From: Pseudomonas alkylphenolica
GTDB taxonomy: Bacteria > Pseudomonadota > Gammaproteobacteria > Pseudomonadales > Pseudomonadaceae
Assembly (NCBI RefSeq): GCF_004025535.1
Contig: NZ_QJRG01000033.1
Location: 682,001-746,000, forward strand
Direction of reading: 5' to 3'
DNA length: 64,000 nt
The notes under the pieces are model-generated. The model saw nothing but the letters and a program-made list of their open reading frames with translations, did not search any database and had not been told where the DNA came from. Shown here in pieces: positions 2,999 to 46,808 of this stretch. Position 1 is the stretch's first letter. Each line of letters begins with the position of its first letter. The translations under genes and the position numbers were made by a program.

Positions 2999-3126
2999 GT
3001 AATGACTCCTCGAAACTCCAGCCCCAAGCTGGAACAAAGCTTAGACGTCAATTTGCCCTTTCGGTTGCAACTGCGGTGTGGAACATGCTCTGTTAGTAGG
3101 CAGTACCTTTGGACAGCAGGATGCGT

Positions 3127-27099: not shown

Positions 27100-27231
27100 G
27101 GCGTCTTTAAGTTTCGTTTCGAAAGTTAGTGATGCCAATCAAAACCTAAAGCGTTAACTGCGTCAAGCAGATCCGACAAAAACCCATCTGTGCATAACTT
27201 GTTCGACAAAGCCAATTTATCCACAGAATGA

Positions 27232-27271
27232 TAAAAGGCCGACTTATACACTGTACAGTCGGCCTTTTTTA
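27232..27271 (-). terminator. glmU rho-independent terminator
   Basis: On the minus strand AAAAGGCCGACT pairs with AGTCGGCCTTTT with a run of T, about 20 bp after the glmU stop. DnaA-box nonamers flank it at 27217-27225 and 27276-27284. Confidence 0.85.
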
Positions 27272-27285
27272 CATTTGTGGATAAC

Positions 27286-37733: not shown

Positions 37734-38378
37734 TCATGCCGTGCGGCGCAGTATCAGCAGATGGCGCTGGCCTTGGCAACCCGGAACGGTCAAGGCCTGC
37801 TCGCTATCTACTCTGAAATCTGCCGGCAATGCTACCAGCTCGTCGGCAGGATGCAGCCCTTTCATTGCCAGCCACTGCGTCTGCTCGTCGCCAAGATGGC
37901 GCGTCCAGTTGGTGAAGTTCTCCATGCTGCTGAAAGCCCGGGAAACAATTCCGGTAAACGGCAGCTCAGGCTGGAACTCTTCGACCCGCTTGTGGATAAC
38001 TGTCAGGTTGTCCAGTTTCAGCTCAAGTTTTACCTGCGTGAGGAACCGGGTTTTCTTGCCATTGCTGTCAAGCACCGTGACTTGCTTGTCCGGATGCAGG
38101 ATGGCCAAGGGAATACCCGGCATGCCGCCACCGCTGCCGACATCGAGCCAGCGCGCGCTGTGGATAAACGGCATCACGCTCAAACTGTCGAGCAGATGGC
38201 GGGAGACCATTTCGTCCGGATTACGCACCGCAGTCAGGTTGTAAGCCTTGTTCCACTTTATCAACAGGGCAAGGTAAGCCAGCAATTGCGCGTGCTGCGC
38301 CTCGCTCAGCTCAACACCCAGCTGGCGGGCACCTGTGGACAACTCTTCGGCGTGTTGAGGGGTGACCATAGAACTCAA
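37734..38378 (-). CDS. rsmG: 16S rRNA (guanine527-N7)-methyltransferase RsmG
   Basis: Methylates G527 of 16S rRNA with SAM, 214 residues (also called GidB). The SAM loop [17 protein letters not shown] is at about residues 74-90. Its start overlaps the mnmG stop by 4 bases, so the genes are translationally coupled. Two exact DnaA boxes lie inside at 37991 and 38159. Confidence 0.96.
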
Positions 38379-40270
38379 GCGCTTTGCTCCAACTCGCGGC
38401 CAGCGCCGCGTTTTTTCAGATGAATCAGCAACAGGGAAATCGCTGCCGGCGTGACGCCGGGAATACGCGATGCCTGGCCCAGCGTCTCGGGCCGGGTCTG
38501 ACCCAGTTTGCTCTGGATTTCCTTGGACAGACCGGAAATACCGCTGTAATCGATATCTTCAGGCAGGCGGGTGTCTTCGCTGGCACGCAGGCGGGCGATT
38601 TCTTCCTGTTGCCGGTCGATGTAGCCGGCATATTTGGTCTTGATCTCGACCTGCTCGGCTACCTGTGGATTAATTTCGGCACCGCCGGTCACTTCCATCA
38701 GCCCAGCGTAGTCGATTTCCGGACGGGTCAGCAGGTTGAGCAGATTGTATTCATGACTCAACGGCGTGCCGAATTTCTCGGCAATGGCCTGACCTTGCGC
38801 GGTGTCCGGGCGAACCCAGGTGGACTTCAACCGTTGCTCTTCCAGGGCAATGCCTTCGCGTTTGGCGCTGAACGCCGCCCAACGCTCGTCGTCGATCAGG
38901 CCCAGCTCGCGACCTTTTTCGGTCAAGCGCAGATCGGCGTTGTCTTCACGCAGGATCAGCCGGTATTCGGCGCGCGAAGTGAACATGCGGTATGGCTCCT
39001 GGGTACCCAGGGTAATCAGGTCGTCGACCAGCACGCCGATGTACGCCTCATCCCGACGCGGGCACCAGCTTTCACGACCCTGCGCGCGCAGCGCGGCGTT
39101 GGTACCGGCGAGCAAGCCTTGCGCACCGGCCTCTTCGTAGCCGGTTGTGCCGTTGATCTGGCCGGCGAAGAACAGGCCGCCGATCACTTTGGTTTCCAGG
39201 CTGTACTTGAGGTCACGCGGATCGAAGTAGTCGTACTCGATGGCGTAGCCCGGACGCACGATATGCGCGTTTTCCATGCCGCGGATCGAACGGACGATCT
39301 GCAGTTGCACATCGAACGGCAAGGATGTGGATATCCCGTTCGGGTACAGCTCGTGCGTGTTCAGGCCTTCCGGTTCGATGAATACCTGATGGCTTTCCTT
39401 GTCGGCAAAGCGATGAATCTTGTCTTCGATCGACGGGCAATAGCGCGGGCCGATGCCTTCGATTACCCCCGAGTACATCGGCGAACGATCAAGGTTCGAG
39501 GCGATGATCTCGTGGGTCCGCGCGTTGGTGTGGGTAATCCAGCAACTGACCTGGCGTGGATGCATCGATTTGTCGCCCATGAACGACATCACCGGAATCG
39601 GGGTATCGCCTGGCTGCTCGGTCATGACCGAGAAATCCACAGAGCGCCCATCGATACGCGGAGGCGTGCCGGTTTTCAGTCGACCGACGCGCAGCGGCAA
39701 CTCCCGCAGGCGATGCGCCAAAGCAATCGCAGGCGGATCACCGGCGCGACCGCCGGAGTAATTCTGCAAACCAATGTGGATAAGTCCAGCGAGGAAGGTC
39801 CCGGTGGTCAGTACCACGGAGTCGGCGAAGAAACGCAGACCCATTTGAGTCACCACGCCGCGTACCTGGTCCTGCTCGACGATCAGGTCATCGCAGGACT
39901 GCTGGAATATCCACAGGTTGGGCTGGTTCTCGAGAATTTCACGCACAACCGCCTTGTAGATGGCGCGGTCGGCCTGGGCGCGGGTTGCGCGCACTGCCGG
40001 GCCTTTGCGGTTGTTCAATACACGGAATTGGATACCGCTCTTGTCAGTAGCCAGCGCCATGGCGCCGCCGAGCGCATCGATCTCCTTGACCAGATGGCTC
40101 TTGCCGATGCCACCGATAGCCGGGTTGCAACTCATATGACCGAGGGTTTCCACGTTATGGGTCAGCAGCAGGGTTTTTACGCCCATGCGAGCAGACGCAA
40201 GCGCAGCCTCGGTACCGGCATGGCCGCCGCCGATGACGATCACTTCAAAACGGGAAGGGAAATCCACCAC
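38375..40270 (-). CDS. mnmG: tRNA uridine 5-carboxymethylaminomethyl modification enzyme MnmG (GidA)
   Basis: FAD enzyme that with MnmE builds the cmnm5 group on U34 of certain tRNAs. The 631-residue protein has the FAD loop [13 protein letters not shown] at residues 13-25, signature [12 protein letters not shown] near 270 and [17 protein letters not shown] near 370. It starts at the edge of the second origin-like segment and heads the mnmG-rsmG-parA-parB row. Confidence 0.97.
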
Positions 40271-40783
40271 GCACCTCGTGCCTGTTTCGGGAATAGATAG
40301 GGATAACGCACCAGTATAGGGACTTCCCCCCCTCTATAGGAACCTTTTGCACAAAATTTAACCAGCCTGTGGATGAGTGGCGAGCAATAGAAATTAAAAG
40401 AGAGAAATTTATTAAAGCTTTGTTTTTATGTTTATTCTTATGCACCTACCTTTCTGTGGATAAATCTCTACAGGCCTTTAACTACGGTATGTACAGAGGT
40501 TCAAAACCCTGTGGTCTACCGGCCATGAGCGTTCTGGATAAGCGCTTTAAGCCTGTGGATGAAATGCCTACTTACCCACAAGCGGATTTATCTTCAGGGT
40601 TGAGGGCTAGTTATCAACGGAGCTGAAGCCGGGTTTTCCACAGGGCTTATTTAACAAAATTGTGGATAGACGCGCAGACGAGTACGCAGGATCAACGCAT
40701 GGGTTGTCCTGGCAGGGGGAGAAAAATTAAGGAGAGAAGGCAGCAGCCAGGTCCATTGCGGACCCGGCTGTGGATAAGGACGC
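40271..40783. other. Origin-like intergenic segment (second ori) between mnmG and mnmE
   Basis: A 513-bp gene-free stretch. It holds exact DnaA boxes at 40455-40463 and 40769-40777, near-consensus boxes at 40368, 40533, 40554, 40572, 40634 and 40661, and an AT-rich stretch at 40378-40450. The segment 40453-40498 aligns without gaps to 44953-44998 in oriC at 39 of 46 positions and in the same orientation. Both segments also share an AAAGAGAG-rich AT stretch 56-60 bp upstream. From memory, two autonomously replicating fragments were reported from this region in other pseudomonads. Confidence 0.7.
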
Positions 40784-42154
40784 TTACTTGCCGATGCAGA
40801 AGCTGGAGAAGATTCGACCCAGCAAGTCGTCGGAGCTGAAAGCGCCGGTAATTTCGCCCAAGGCTTGCTGAGCCTGACGCAGGTCTTCAGCAAGCAGCTC
40901 ACCGGCACCCGCCAGGGTCAATTGCGCACGACCGTGCTCCAGGTGCGTACTGGCCTGGCGCAACGCCTCCAGGTGGCGCCTGCGCGCGCTGAAGCTACTC
41001 TCGGCCGTCTGTTCGTAACCCATGCAGGCCTTCAGGTGTTCGCGCAACAGCTCAAGCCCCATGTCAGTATCCCTGGCACTGAGGGTGATGGTGACGTGGC
41101 CATCCGCGCTTTGCTCCATGGCGACCGTCTCGCCACTGAGGTCGGCCTTGTTACGAATCAGCGTGACTTTGGCCGGGTCCGGGCGCAGATCGAGAAACTC
41201 CGGCCACAGTGCAAAGGGATCGCTGGCTTCCGGCGCCGTCGAATCAACCACCAGCAACACCCGATCAGCTTCGTTGATGGCTTTGAGTGCACGCTGCACA
41301 CCGATCTTTTCCACATGGTCATCGGTGTCGCGCAGTCCGGCAGTGTCCACGACATGCAGCGGCATGCCATCGATGTGGATATGTTCGCGCAGGATATCTC
41401 GGGTGGTGCCGGCAATATCGGTCACGATTGCAGCTTCACGCCCGGCCAGTACATTGAGCAGGCTGGATTTGCCGGCATTCGGACGACCGGCGATCACAAC
41501 CGTCATGCCATCGCGCAGTAACGCGCCCTGCCCGGCTTCACGCTGCACTGTGGACAGATTCGTGCGGACATCATCGAGCATGCTCAACACATGGCCATCG
41601 GCGAGAAAGTCGATTTCTTCCTCCGGGAAGTCGATTGCGGCTTCCACGTAGATCCGCAAGCTGATCAATTTCTCGGTGAGGTTATCCACACGGCGGGAAA
41701 ATTCGCCCTGGAGCGAGCGCAAGGCATTGCGCGCCGCTTGGGCCGAACTGGCTTCAATCAGGTCGGCGATCGCCTCGGCCTGCGCCAGGTCGAGCTTGTC
41801 ATTGAGGAATGCGCGTTCGCTGAATTCACCTGGGCGCGCCAGTCGGCAACCCAGTTGTACACAGCGCTGCAGGAGCATATCCAGCACCACCGGCCCACCA
41901 TGGCCCTGCAACTCGAGTACATCCTCGCCGGTGAAGGAATTTGGCCCAGGGAAAAAAAGCGCGATACCTTCATCGAGTACCAGACCATCGTCAGCACGGA
42001 ACGGCCCGTAATGGGCATGCCGCGGCGTCAGCGCTTTTCCACAGATGGCCAGCCCGGCCTGTTGGGCCAAGGGACCGGAAAGCCGCACGATCCCCACCCC
42101 CCCACGTCCCTGGGCGGTAGCGATGGCGGCAATGGTTTCACGCACAGTGTTCAT
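40784..42154 (-). CDS. mnmE: tRNA modification GTPase MnmE (TrmE)
   Basis: GTPase partner of MnmG in U34 tRNA modification, 456 residues. Starts [19 protein letters not shown] with the formyl-THF-binding domain, followed by a helical domain, the inserted G domain ([12 protein letters not shown] near residue 222, DTAGLRDT near 270, NKAD near 335) and the C-terminal CIGK with the family cysteine. The start at 42154 is chosen to match this N-terminus. It is separated from yidC by a terminator and a DnaA box. Confidence 0.97.
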
Positions 42155-42188
42155 GCTCGAAGGCCTCACGACAAAAACGACAGATAGC

Positions 42189-42212
42189 AAAACGCCCCAC
42201 GAGGGGGCGTTT
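42189..42212 (-). terminator. Rho-independent terminator between yidC and mnmE
   Basis: On the minus strand AAACGCCCC pairs with GGGGCGTTTT around CTCGT, followed by T. An exact DnaA box at 42211-42219 overlaps its upstream side. Confidence 0.75.
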
Positions 42213-42237: not shown

Positions 42238-43920
42238 TTATGCAGCGGCTTTCTTGGCAGCCTTTTCGATGCTGCTGGTGATGTACCACTGCTGTGCGAT
42301 CGACAGGCAGTTGTTCACAACCCAGTACAGCACCAGACCTGCCGGGAACCACAGGAAGAAGAAGGTGAAGATGATTGGCATCAGCTTCATCACCTTGGCC
42401 TGCATCGGATCCGGCGGCGTCGGGTTCAGGCGCTGCTGAATGAACATGGTCGCACCCATGATGATCGGCAGGATGAAGAACGGATCCTTGATCGACAGGT
42501 CGGTGATCCAGAACATCCAGGGTGCCTGACGCATCTCGACGCTTTCCAGCAACACCCAGTACAGCGAGAGGAAGACCGGCATCTGCACCAGTATCGGCAG
42601 GCAGCCGCCCAGCGGGTTGATCTTCTCTTTCTTGTACAGCTCCATCATGGCCTGCGACATTTTCTGCCGGTCATCACCATGTTGTTCTTTCAGTGCAGCC
42701 AGTTTTGGCGCCACGGCACGCATGCGCGCCATCGACTTGTAGCTGGCGGCGGACAGCGGGAAGAACAGCAGCTTGATCAGCATGGTCAGGACGATGATCG
42801 ACCAGCCCCAGTTGCCGAGCAGGCTGTGGATATGTTGCAGCAGCCAGAAAATCGGCTGAGCGATGAACCACAGAATGCCGTAGTCGACAGTCAGTTCCAG
42901 ACCTGGGGACAACTCTTTGAGCTTGTCCTGGATCTTCGGACCGGCATACAGCATGGCACTGGTTTCGCCTTTGGCACCGGCGGCTACGTTCAGGGCCGGG
43001 CCAGTGAAACCGATGATGTAGTTACCCTGGCTGTCCTTGCGGGTCTGGACAATGTTGTTGTCAGACTTGTTTGGAATCCAGGCGGTAACGAAGTAGTGCT
43101 GCAGCCAGGCTACCCAGCCACCGGAAACATTTTCTTTCAGATTTCCCTTGTCGATGTCTTTCATCGACACTTTTTTGTAGGGTTCCGAACTTGTCCACAG
43201 GGCAGCACCCAGGTACGTCGCGGTACCCGTTGCAGTGCTCGAAGAAGGATCGGAGCTTGCATCGCGCTTGAGTTGCGCGAACAGGTTACCGGTCCACGGC
43301 TGTGCACTCTGGTTGTCGATCAGGTAGGTAACGGTCAGGTCGTACTCACCGCGCTTGAAGCTGAAGCGCTTGATGTAGTTGACGCCGTTATCGCTGAACT
43401 TGAGGTCGACGACCAGTTGGTCCTGGCCATCAGCCAGTTGATAACTTTTCTGATCGGCGGCGTACAGCGGACGGCCGGCAGAACGTGCATCAGGACCATT
43501 GGTACCGGTCAGGCCGCTTTGCGCCAGATAAGTACGCTCGTTTCCGTTGTCGAACAGCTGGAACGGAATGTCCGGATGATCCTGACGACGGGGGTACTTG
43601 GGCAGCATCAGCTGGGCGATGTCACCACCGTTTGGATCGATAGCCAGGTCGAGAACGTCAGTTTTGACCCGAATCAGGTCCTTGCTGACGGCAACCGGAG
43701 CCAGTTCGGCTGGGCTGGATTCAGCGTTGGCGCTCGGCACATCGGCGCTGGCGCCAGTGTTGCCGGCCTGCGCGGTGTCCGGCAATGCCGGGGCAGCGTT
43801 GCTGGCAGCAGTATTCTGAGTCGGCAGGGCAGCCTGGCCGTAGTCCTGGTTCCAGTTAAGGACCATGACGTAGGACACGATTGCCAGGGCGACGATCAGG
43901 ATCGTGCGTTTAATATCCAT
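42238..43920 (-). CDS. yidC: Membrane protein insertase YidC
   Basis: Inserts and folds inner membrane proteins, alone or with SecYEG. The 560-residue protein has an N-terminal membrane anchor (ILIVALAIVSYVMVL), a large periplasmic domain with a low-complexity Ala/Ser linker at residues 35-75, and the conserved membrane core from about 350 (GNWGWSIIVLTMLIKLLFFPLS, then MPVFLSLYWVLLESVEMR). It follows yidD by 2 bp. Confidence 0.97.
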   Translation of the reverse strand: MDIKRTILIVALAIVSYVMVLNWNQDYGQAALPTQNTAASNAAPALPDTAQAGNTGASADVPSANAESSPAELAPVAVSKDLIRVKTDVLDLAIDPNGGDIAQLMLPKYPRRQDHPDIPFQLFDNGNERTYLAQSGLTGTNGPDARSAGRPLYAADQKSYQLADGQDQLVVDLKFSDNGVNYIKRFSFKRGEYDLTVTYLIDNQSAQPWTGNLFAQLKRDASSDPSSSTATGTATYLGAALWTSSEPYKKVSMKDIDKGNLKENVSGGWVAWLQHYFVTAWIPNKSDNNIVQTRKDSQGNYIIGFTGPALNVAAGAKGETSAMLYAGPKIQDKLKELSPGLELTVDYGILWFIAQPIFWLLQHIHSLLGNWGWSIIVLTMLIKLLFFPLSAASYKSMARMRAVAPKLAALKEQHGDDRQKMSQAMMELYKKEKINPLGGCLPILVQMPVFLSLYWVLLESVEMRQAPWMFWITDLSIKDPFFILPIIMGATMFIQQRLNPTPPDPMQAKVMKLMPIIFTFFFLWFPAGLVLYWVVNNCLSIAQQWYITSSIEKAAKKAAA

Positions 43921-44578: not shown

Positions 44579-44713
44579 TCAAACTGCCAGACGCTTACGG
44601 CCTTTGGCACGGCGACGCGACAGAACGGCACGACCGTTCTTGGTGGCCATACGGGCACGGAAACCGTGAGTGCGAGCGCGCTTGATGGTGCTTGGTTGGA
44701 AAGTACGTTTCAT
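44579..44713 (-). CDS. rpmH: 50S ribosomal protein L34
   Basis: Ribosomal protein of 44 residues, very basic. It reads [19 protein letters not shown] at the start and ends GRKRLAV. It lies 13 bp before the rnpA start and marks the left border of oriC. It has its own sigma-70 promoter at 44774-44802. Confidence 0.97.
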
Positions 44714-45293
44714 GGCGTGTTACCTGGTTCGTCGACAACGGGCCGGAATGGCCCCCGTTTTAAGAGACCGGCGATTCTAGAGAAAGCGCAGCCGTAGGTC
44801 AATTTCCAACCAGCTTTTCCTTATAGACGGGAAATCCGCTGTTTCGGGTTGGGGTGTCACGCTGGAGAACCATCACACGCTTAAACATAAAAAAAGAGAG
44901 AGGAATTATTTAAAGCTTTTCTGTAAAACTTATAGAACTTAAGCAGCCGATATCTGTGGATAAAACGCTACAGGCCTTTATTCACGCCATGTACAGAGAA
45001 CTGAAAGGTTGTCGAGAAGAGGTGCTCTGACTGTGCTGAAGGTTCGGAAAAGCTGTGGATCAAATCGATGGTTATCCACAGGACGGTTATCCACCGATTT
45101 CGACCCCCAGTTGTGCAAAGACCTCAGGTGCGGTTATCCACAGAGCTTATTCACAGCGCATAAAGGTCATTTTGGTCACTAAGCTGCTGATTTATCGCCA
45201 CCCTCATCGCACCTGCATGTGGATAACTGTGAGGTTGCTCGGTACAATGGGGGCTTGTTTTTGCCTCACCGGCTTTCAACTCAGGGGATATCC
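44714..45293. other. oriC: Replication origin oriC
   Basis: A 580-bp gene-free region between rpmH and dnaA. Exact DnaA boxes TTATCCACA or TGTGGATAA are at 44955-44963, 45072-45080, 45134-45142 and 45218-45226. Variants are at 45054-45062, 45088-45096 and 45147-45155. An AT-rich segment at 44880-44945, next to the box at 44955, is the likely unwinding element. The last box lies in the dnaA promoter region, upstream of a possible -10 TACAAT at 45243-45248, which fits DnaA autoregulation. Confidence 0.93.
44774..44802 (-). promoter_or_regulatory. Sigma-70 promoter of the rpmH-rnpA-yidD-yidC row
   Basis: On the minus strand TTGACC (44802-44797), a 17-bp spacer and TAGAAT (44779-44774), 61 bp upstream of the rpmH ATG. 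Confidence 0.8.
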
Positions 45294-46808
45294 GTGTCAG
45301 TGGAACTTTGGCAGCAGTGCGTGGAGCTTCTGCGCGATGAACTGCCTGCCCAGCAATTCAACACCTGGATCCGTCCGCTACAGGTCGAAGCCGAAGGCGA
45401 CGAGTTGCGCGTTTACGCGCCCAACCGTTTCGTTCTCGATTGGGTCAATGAAAAATACCTCAGCCGTCTGCTCGAGCTGCTCGGGGAACATGGCAACGGC
45501 ATCGCGCCTGCCCTTTCCTTATTAATAGGCAGCCGACGCAGTTCTGCACCCAGAGCCGCTCCCAACGCCCCGCTGGCTGCCGCTGTTGCTGCATCCCAGG
45601 CGCAGGCGGCACAGACGGCCGTGGTCAATGAGCCGGTTGCCGCCCCCGTTGCTGCGCCCGCTGCGGCTGAAGTCGAGCAAGCGCCTTCGCGGGACAGCTT
45701 CGATTCGATGGGCGAGTCTGCTGCTGCGCCGGCGCCCACCGGCCGTACTGAACAACGTACCGTGCAGGTCGAAGGTGCGCTCAAGCACACCAGCTACCTG
45801 AACCGTACTTTTACCTTCGAGAATTTCGTCGAAGGTAAATCCAACCAGTTGGCGCGCGCGGCCGCCTGGCAGGTCGCCGACAATCCCAAGCATGGCTACA
45901 ACCCGCTGTTCCTTTATGGCGGTGTCGGCTTGGGTAAAACGCACTTGATGCACGCTGTGGGTAACCACCTGCTCAAGAAGAACCCGAATGCAAAAGTGGT
46001 TTACCTGCATTCAGAGCGTTTCGTTGCCGACATGGTCAAGGCGCTGCAGCTGAACGCGATCAACGAGTTCAAGCGTTTCTACCGATCGGTGGATGCGTTG
46101 CTCATCGATGACATTCAGTTCTTCGCCCGGAAAGAGCGTTCGCAGGAAGAGTTTTTCCACACCTTCAACGCCTTGCTCGAAGGCGGTCAGCAAGTAATTC
46201 TTACCAGTGACCGTTACCCGAAAGAGATCGAAGGCCTGGAAGAGCGTCTGAAGTCGCGTTTCGGTTGGGGCCTGACCGTAGCGGTCGAGCCCCCCGAGCT
46301 GGAAACCCGCGTTGCGATCCTGATGAAGAAAGCCGACCAGGCAAAGGTAGACCTGCCTCACGACGCCGCGTTCTTTATTGCCCAGCGCATTCGCTCCAAC
46401 GTCCGCGAACTTGAAGGCGCATTGAAACGTGTCATCGCGCACTCGCACTTCATGGGACGCGACATCACCATTGAGCTGATTCGGGAATCGCTCAAGGATC
46501 TTCTGGCACTCCAGGACAAGCTGGTAAGTGTGGATAACATCCAGCGCACCGTTGCCGAGTACTACAAGATCAAGATTTCCGACTTGCTGTCCAAGCGTCG
46601 CTCGCGTTCAGTGGCACGGCCTCGACAAGTGGCCATGGCACTGTCCAAAGAGCTGACCAACCATAGCCTGCCGGAAATTGGTGATGTCTTTGGCGGCCGC
46701 GACCACACTACCGTGTTGCATGCGTGCCGTAAGATCAACGAACTCAAGGAATCCGACGCGGATATCCGCGAGGACTACAAGAACCTGCTGCGGACGCTGA
46801 CGACGTGA
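45294..46808 (+). CDS. dnaA: Chromosomal replication initiator DnaA
   Basis: AAA+ initiator that binds DnaA boxes and opens oriC, 504 residues. The start is GTG at 45294 ([13 protein letters not shown]), supported by AGGGGA upstream; an upstream ATG at 45219 overlaps a DnaA box. Domain I is at residues 1-80, an Ala-rich linker at about 85-150, the Walker [10 protein letters not shown] near 218, and the domain IV DNA signature [16 protein letters not shown] near the C-terminus. An exact DnaA box lies within the gene at 46529. Confidence 0.98.

Follow-up and report, generated by a model that had tools for sequence, protein, structure and literature searches.

A second oriC-type module between mnmG and mnmE in Pseudomonas alkylphenolica, colinear with the dnaA-side origin and possibly kept as an accessory origin

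The window analyzed here, a stretch of 64,000 nucleotides from Pseudomonas alkylphenolica (RefSeq assembly GCF_004025535.1, contig NZ_QJRG01000033.1, positions 682,001 to 746,000 of the forward strand), carries two oriC-like segments, one flanked by mnmG and mnmE and named ori2, the other flanked by rpmH and dnaA and named ori1; the initial annotation had named these neighbors correctly. The mnmG-mnmE intergenic region (40271-40783) contains 10 DnaA boxes with at most one mismatch, two of them perfect, and the AT-rich, putatively unwinding side of ori2 adjoins its outer box, with a minimum 50-bp GC content of 0.16 at 115 bp from the mnmG start. The genes and features are as follows, with offsets counted from the first, R1-type DnaA box of each copy.

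38375-40270, minus strand: mnmG (gidA), its start 184 bp from the R1-type box of ori2
40393-40651, plus strand: ori2, the whole mnmG-side module, ungapped and colinear with 44893-45151; it consists of an AT-rich side, the R1-type DnaA box, a 46-bp segment and a box array reaching to a shared GCTTATT at the right end
40393-40443, plus strand: putative AT-rich unwinding side of ori2, holding the genus-conserved TTTTTATGTTTATT
40453-40498, plus strand: 46-bp segment of ori2, with the R1-type box, AGnCC and TGTACAG
40455-40463, minus strand: perfect, R1-like DnaA box TTATCCACA of ori2, offset 0
40510-40518, minus strand: weak ori2 box TGTGGTCTA at +55, 3 mismatches, at the offset of E. coli R5M
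40554-40562, minus strand: ori2 DnaA box at +99, 1 mismatch
40572-40580, plus strand: ori2 DnaA box at +117, 1 mismatch
40634-40642, plus strand: ori2 DnaA box at +179, 1 mismatch
40769-40777, minus strand: perfect DnaA box at +314, beyond the shared array
40784-42190, minus strand: mnmE (trmE), longest reading frame, the first gene between the two origins
42238-43920, minus strand: yidC, paired with mnmE in the fork-direction test
44579-44713, minus strand: rpmH, adjoining ori1 on the left
44893-45155, plus strand: ori1, the dnaA-side oriC and colinear counterpart of ori2, spanning AAAGAGAG to the +192 box, with boxes at 44955, 45054, 45072, 45087, 45134 and 45147
45219-46808, plus strand: dnaA, longest reading frame, the real start possibly further right; adjoins ori1 on the right

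The 46-bp segment had been reported to align without gaps and in the same orientation to 44953-44998, and this match was recovered exactly (39 of 46 positions identical); elsewhere in the window the runner-up scores 25 on the plus strand and the best minus-strand site 24, and dinucleotide shuffling of both intergenic regions gave at most 31 of 46 in 300 pairs. The spacing given for the AT-rich motif AAAGAGAG is also right: its two starts, 40397 and 44893, precede those of the segments by 56 and 60 bp. That the unwinding region, first box and following segment are duplicated together holds and extends further, since at an offset of exactly 4500 bp the ungapped likeness continues for about 260 bp and takes in additional boxes; the AT-rich parts are alike and not in strict register, their genus profiles agreeing best at a shift of -3, not 0. 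Overlaid from the first DnaA box, the copies are identical at 130 of 252 positions from -62 to +190, and with the 46-mer removed at 91 of 206 (44%), while slid copies average 25% with a maximum of 33.5%. DnaA boxes common to both copies lie at 0, +99, +117, +132/133 and +179 (with 2 mismatches at +133 in ori2), and clear similarity ends on the right at the common GCTTATT, +190 to +196. With as many as 3 mismatches allowed, TGTGGATAAANNNCTACAGGCCTTTA occurs in these two places only across the organism's 6.17-Mb genome of 50 contigs.

The window's 39 of 46 is unusually high, being the top value among 32 genus genomes and equaled by one other. Concerted evolution within genomes was rejected as an explanation of the likeness, the ori1 and ori2 cores agreeing at 30.22 of 46 positions within genomes and 30.37 of 46 between them (32 genomes, permutation p 0.68). 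The term paralogous used in the initial annotation is likely right and unproven: constraint imposed by a single initiator could equally preserve the likeness, and similarity shows no within-genome excess.

A second autonomously replicating fragment of pseudomonads is reportedly the subject of work by Yee and Smith in 1990, Smith et al. in 1991 and Jiang et al. in 2006, to judge by the titles; P. putida is said to be among the species, with the second element between the mnmE and mnmG genes. Two such fragments had also been mentioned in the initial annotation, and for P. aeruginosa this is borne out by a citing paper, which refers to two autonomously replicating elements studied for pre-priming complexes (PMC4403523). 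Part of the layout is likewise already known, because a review notes that Gammaproteobacteria have a frame like that of E. coli and that P. aeruginosa has additional central boxes (PMC4451416). TTCTGTGGATAGA, listed as a motif typical of Pseudomonas origins in PMC7174414, is the form found in many genus ori2 sites, so the origin set of that paper may mix both sites. Two replicating fragments of pseudomonads are already published, which makes this a known kind, and this analysis adds the layout common to both copies, the relatives at the mnmG side and the skew test; no description of the colinear pair or of such a skew test was recognized in the literature searched, most subscription papers lying outside its reach.

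The oriC of E. coli (NC_000913.3, 3925744-3925975) shares with ori2 both its place upstream of mnmG and its orientation, with 164 bp from first box to mnmG start compared with 184 bp in the window. The inward-facing outer boxes are at 0 and +180 in E. coli and at 0 and +179 in ori2, and both sites have a box at +55, a weak one with 3 mismatches in ori2. The inner boxes differ (+106 and +141 in E. coli; +99, +117 and +132/133 in the window), and beyond the boxes the alignment of E. coli oriC to the window is weak (z 2.2).

Conservation was measured on mnmG-to-dnaA stretches of same-genus (Pseudomonas_E) genomes. The 49 genus loci are the window, 3 loci chosen for a pattern match, 5 from a search of the order and 40 of 59 genus genomes; the 69 Pseudomonas_E loci of the module-threshold survey represent 49 genomes, 20 of them counted twice, and the family genome sets overlap in several genomes. 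The lack of conservation across Pseudomonas that had been named as telling against a second origin was not seen: the ori2 core is present in 49/49 loci and the ori1 core in 32/35, and the designation of the segment as origin-like stands, given its resemblance to oriC along the full length and its conservation in the genus. Boxes recur in ori2 at +117 (49/49) and +179 (45/49), with TGTG at +99 (48/49) and +55 (45/49). Among 31 ori1 loci the boxes are at +117 and +179 (29 each) and +132 (26), with TGTG at +99 in 27 and TGTG at +55 absent from the frequent offsets. TGTACAG, conserved at about +35, occurs in both copies in 40 loci, in neither in 40 and in one only in 15, and so tends to be present or absent jointly (95 loci, uncorrected for relatedness and with several genomes counted twice). 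On the AT-rich side of ori2, from -60 to -21, conservation is 1.35-1.80 bits per position, versus 0.40-0.86 at -130 to -71, and it peaks at 1.8 bits in ori2 and about 1.2 bits in ori1. Orthologue identity between 14 genera of the family is 0.446 for ori2 and 0.399 for ori1. More than 4.5 kb separates mnmG from mnmE in 10 of the 49 genus loci, and where at least 4 kb has been inserted ori2 remains beside mnmG, not mnmE. In L138 (1463-4960) the stretch between mnmG and mnmE contains two genes named by eye, one for a TonB-dependent receptor and one FecR-like.

Many genomes of the order have a similar AT-rich block and box upstream of mnmG, at roughly 170-220 bp from its start. A position matrix (the profile) was built from 16 mnmG-side sites of other families, chosen by eye and including no Pseudomonadaceae; automatic anchoring probably misplaced 2 of the 16 (L119 and L120). 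The ori2 regions of Pseudomonas_E score 15.3-39.3 on this profile, above the shuffled control in 49/49, and ori1 regions reach at least 15 in 22/31, while 259 coding windows score at most -1.9 and 30 block-shuffled ori2 regions at most 14.6. In the window itself ori2 scores 29.0 and ori1 21.9. Two other DnaA-box clusters in the same genome score far below ori2 (-3.9 and -21), and ori2 is therefore more than a box cluster.

With a module in other families called at a profile threshold of 12 plus a box, it is found at the mnmG side in 25/41 loci, with recurrent boxes at +117 (12/25) and +99 (9/25), and at the dnaA side in 18/42, with recurrent boxes at +180 (10/18), +55 (5), +100 (5) and +134 (3), which are the offsets of the dnaA-side module in Halomonas and Marinobacter relatives where it is found. 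The dnaA-side module is below threshold in 24/42 other-family loci, several Halomonas among them; the Halomonas loci are stretches lacking mnmG, which cover the dnaA side only. Outside the order a mnmG-side module was called in 1/20 loci, and no class-wide claim is made. A member of the class outside the order (L173) has a module between rpmH and dnaA, with a profile score of 31.6 at position 372 and a perfect box at +55, and by this profile dnaA-side sites of the oriC-module kind occur outside the order too.

Fork direction was assessed by GC skew at 4-fold sites, as the value for mnmE and yidC minus that for mnmG-side genes, all on the same strand. If ori2 fired, mnmE and yidC would be copied as lagging-strand genes, and if ori1 fired they would behave like mnmG. 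The difference is +0.065 in Pseudomonas_E (2/21 negative), -0.232 in five Marinomonas and Marinobacterium genomes in which the mnmG-side module scores higher (5/5 negative), and +0.083 in four genomes in which the dnaA-side module scores higher (three Marinobacter and one Thalassobium bin; 0/4 negative). A combined measure separates the five from the four at p 0.03 (exact Mann-Whitney), the groups having been formed after scores and skews were seen. Measured against dnaA and dnaN instead, skew is +0.031 in Pseudomonas_E (5/21 negative) and -0.157 in the four dnaA-side genomes (4/4 negative); because this measure fails to separate the classes cleanly, the same-strand comparison is preferred. 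In a first set of 14 other-family genomes compared with dnaA/dnaN, 12 were negative, L091 was zero and L116 positive, and other families differ from Pseudomonas_E at p 1.5e-5 with L112 and L116, which both lack a mnmG-side module, left out. These skews suggest that ori1 is the likelier main start of forks in the window's genus, other genera being ambiguous, and that some other families, in small groups formed post hoc, are started from the mnmG side. The better conserved copy, ori2, thus seems to be the one less used.

We lean towards reading ori2 as a complete second initiation module of the oriC type, in which the R1-type box faces the AT-rich side and a fixed array of further boxes ends in the inward-facing box at +179. 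By analogy with E. coli oriC, DnaA would occupy the R1-type box and the array, and its oligomer would then melt the AT-rich side. The site would correspond, in Pseudomonas, to the origin that other families of Pseudomonadales have beside mnmG; most forks in the genus would begin at ori1, ori2 being retained as an accessory or conditional start site. A wider history is more doubtful, though possible: one oriC layout may have moved between the mnmG-side and dnaA-side sites in the course of Pseudomonadales evolution, with the Pseudomonadaceae as a living two-origin intermediate in which both copies are competent for initiation and kept alike by the same initiator, ori2 firing under some conditions or whenever ori1 fails. 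The retention of a second, highly conserved origin beside one that is seemingly used has been a puzzle since the pseudomonad replicating fragments of 1990. The box layout, the one-site lineages, a natural loss in one relative and the skew test make the role of ori2 experimentally approachable, and the answer would also tell how an origin changes its address without a break in function.

A number of results weigh against an accessory origin at ori2. The layout, the colinearity with ori1, the conservation and the skew signature are properties of the sequence, and from them we infer DnaA binding, opening and firing at ori2 as well as the reason for its retention. At the shared offsets ori2 has one perfect box and ori1 three. 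The left flank is also better conserved at ori2 (0.40-0.86 bits) than at ori1 (0.12-0.46 bits), so part of the difference in conservation between the copies may be local. The lowest genus ori2 score on the profile, 15.3, barely exceeds the shuffled maximum of 14.6, and E. coli oriC scores 6.1, below every genus ori2, with its best position exactly at the R1 box. Under the strict DnaA-trio rule for the basal unwinding system (PMC8287927; at least 3 NAN trios in a row, no more than 16 bp from a box, on a strand inferred from that paper), ori2 of the window has 1 trio, ori1 has 2 and E. coli has 3; at least 3 trios are reached in 7/49 ori2 loci and 2/31 ori1 loci, and the opposite strand of ori2 has longer runs. 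As for the IHF site that an E. coli-type oriC has between R1 and R5M, an IHF-like match occurs in 34/49 ori2 loci (50 shuffle rounds, mean 21.5, maximum 31), at the E. coli position in 5 of the ori2 loci only, and in 11/31 ori1 loci (shuffles, mean 9.2, maximum 15); reading the conserved segment as an IHF site is not clearly supported beyond the shuffles.

The skew results also contain such points. In other genera of the family the same-strand difference is +0.007 (16/28 negative) and the skew against dnaA/dnaN is -0.098 (27/28 negative), and the same-strand comparison covers nine other-family genomes, split five to four post hoc. Over all 103 loci, fork direction as read from skew does not correlate with the strength of the module (Spearman -0.07, p 0.45). 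Lastly, ori2 is mostly lost and ori1 kept in one relative, L221 (same family, genus code g300, draft assembly), unless the assembly is at fault. There the mnmE coding end lies about 50 bp past the first box, which has 1 mismatch; no further box with at most 1 mismatch occurs within 600 bp of mnmG, and the module scores -3.0 at the mnmG side and 31.0 at the dnaA side. Barring an assembly fault, ori2 is thus losable, which disfavors a need for it. A second genome of the same genus (L222) retains the first, +117 and +179 boxes.

The strongest rival to the accessory origin is DnaA titration, in which ori2 starts no forks and is a DnaA-binding site that titrates the protein or couples mnmG transcription to DnaA activity; we regard this as unlikely. 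The window, 64 kb or about 1% of the genome, holds 20 of the genome's 123 perfect TTATCCACA boxes, a recent paper argues that box-rich DNA near the E. coli origin titrates, and at the large insertions ori2 stays with mnmG rather than mnmE. Boxes alone would suffice for titration, but no stretch of ori2 next to the R1 box is as well conserved as the AT-rich side, and because that side is conserved a pure titration or promoter role is disfavored. The module is missing from both of the genome's other box clusters that were scored. For a promoter or RNA role, a simple sigma-70 scan of the ori2 region found no promoter, which is weak evidence, and a leader RNA or riboswitch was rejected, with one sub-threshold match only (18.2 bits against a cut-off of 35).

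Less probable still is a bipartite origin, in which ori1 and ori2 are halves and DnaA bound at ori2 helps to open ori1, looping out 4.5 kb. Bacillus and Helicobacter have bipartite origins with a spacer, which, like the window, contain two neighboring DnaA-box clusters; in those described, one subregion has an AT-rich side and the total is up to about 2 kb, whereas in the window each cluster has an AT-rich side and the distance between them is 4.5 kb. Covariation of ori1 and ori2 by genus is weak, with p 0.017 on the AT-rich side, p 0.028 from +11 to +54, p 0.32 from +55 to +191 and p 0.09 over all positions. Against two halves, each copy is complete with an AT-rich side of its own, the mnmG-mnmE distance exceeds 4.5 kb in the 10 genus loci noted above, and one relative is mostly without ori2.

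It is very improbable that ori2 is the main chromosomal origin of the genus and the dnaA-side site the accessory one. Its better conservation and the mnmG-side location shared with E. coli are in favor, but the mnmE/yidC skew in Pseudomonas_E is consistent with forks that arrive from the dnaA side, transcription of mnmE through rpmH would oppose the fork, and a paper on the P. aeruginosa chromosome treats the dnaA-adjacent site as oriC. Hardly any credence is left for ori2 as the decaying remnant of an origin that ancestrally lay at the mnmG side, a reading that its near loss in one relative would suit and that was already disfavored, with the core kept in every genus locus and the AT-rich side and box offsets conserved.

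DnaA boxes are also dense around the window and at a few sites away from it. The 107 kb around the window (own genome C14:658961-765808) contains 37 of the genome's 123 perfect boxes. Eight perfect boxes lie within 2 kb on another contig (C21:161250-163259; L329 1751-3760), five of them within 470 bp between genes that by eye resemble an electron transfer flavoprotein and a Rieske-type oxygenase, and this cluster is a candidate titration site. Within the window, three perfect boxes (TTATNCACA) lie at 27189-27284, with a glmU-like gene on one side and a DeoR-type regulator on the other, both named by eye. Three repeats of one genome (L033, L034 and L035) carry TGTGGATANNTCNCTACAG within inverted TTCTTGC/GCAAGAA ends and look mobile, with an origin-like motif inside. 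A far-off element, CTGTCCACAAAAANCGTGGGTAGGTCTGTGGATAA (L037-L040 at position 3001; L163-L167), is present, with no more than 3 mismatches, in 5 of the 59 genomes of the genus and not in the window's own genome. AACGCTACAGGCC follows it in L037-L040, and a LysR-type gene lies beside it (by eye in L037 and L040). The element has one perfect and two imperfect DnaA boxes, a layout that we take to be reminiscent of DnaA-reactivating sites.
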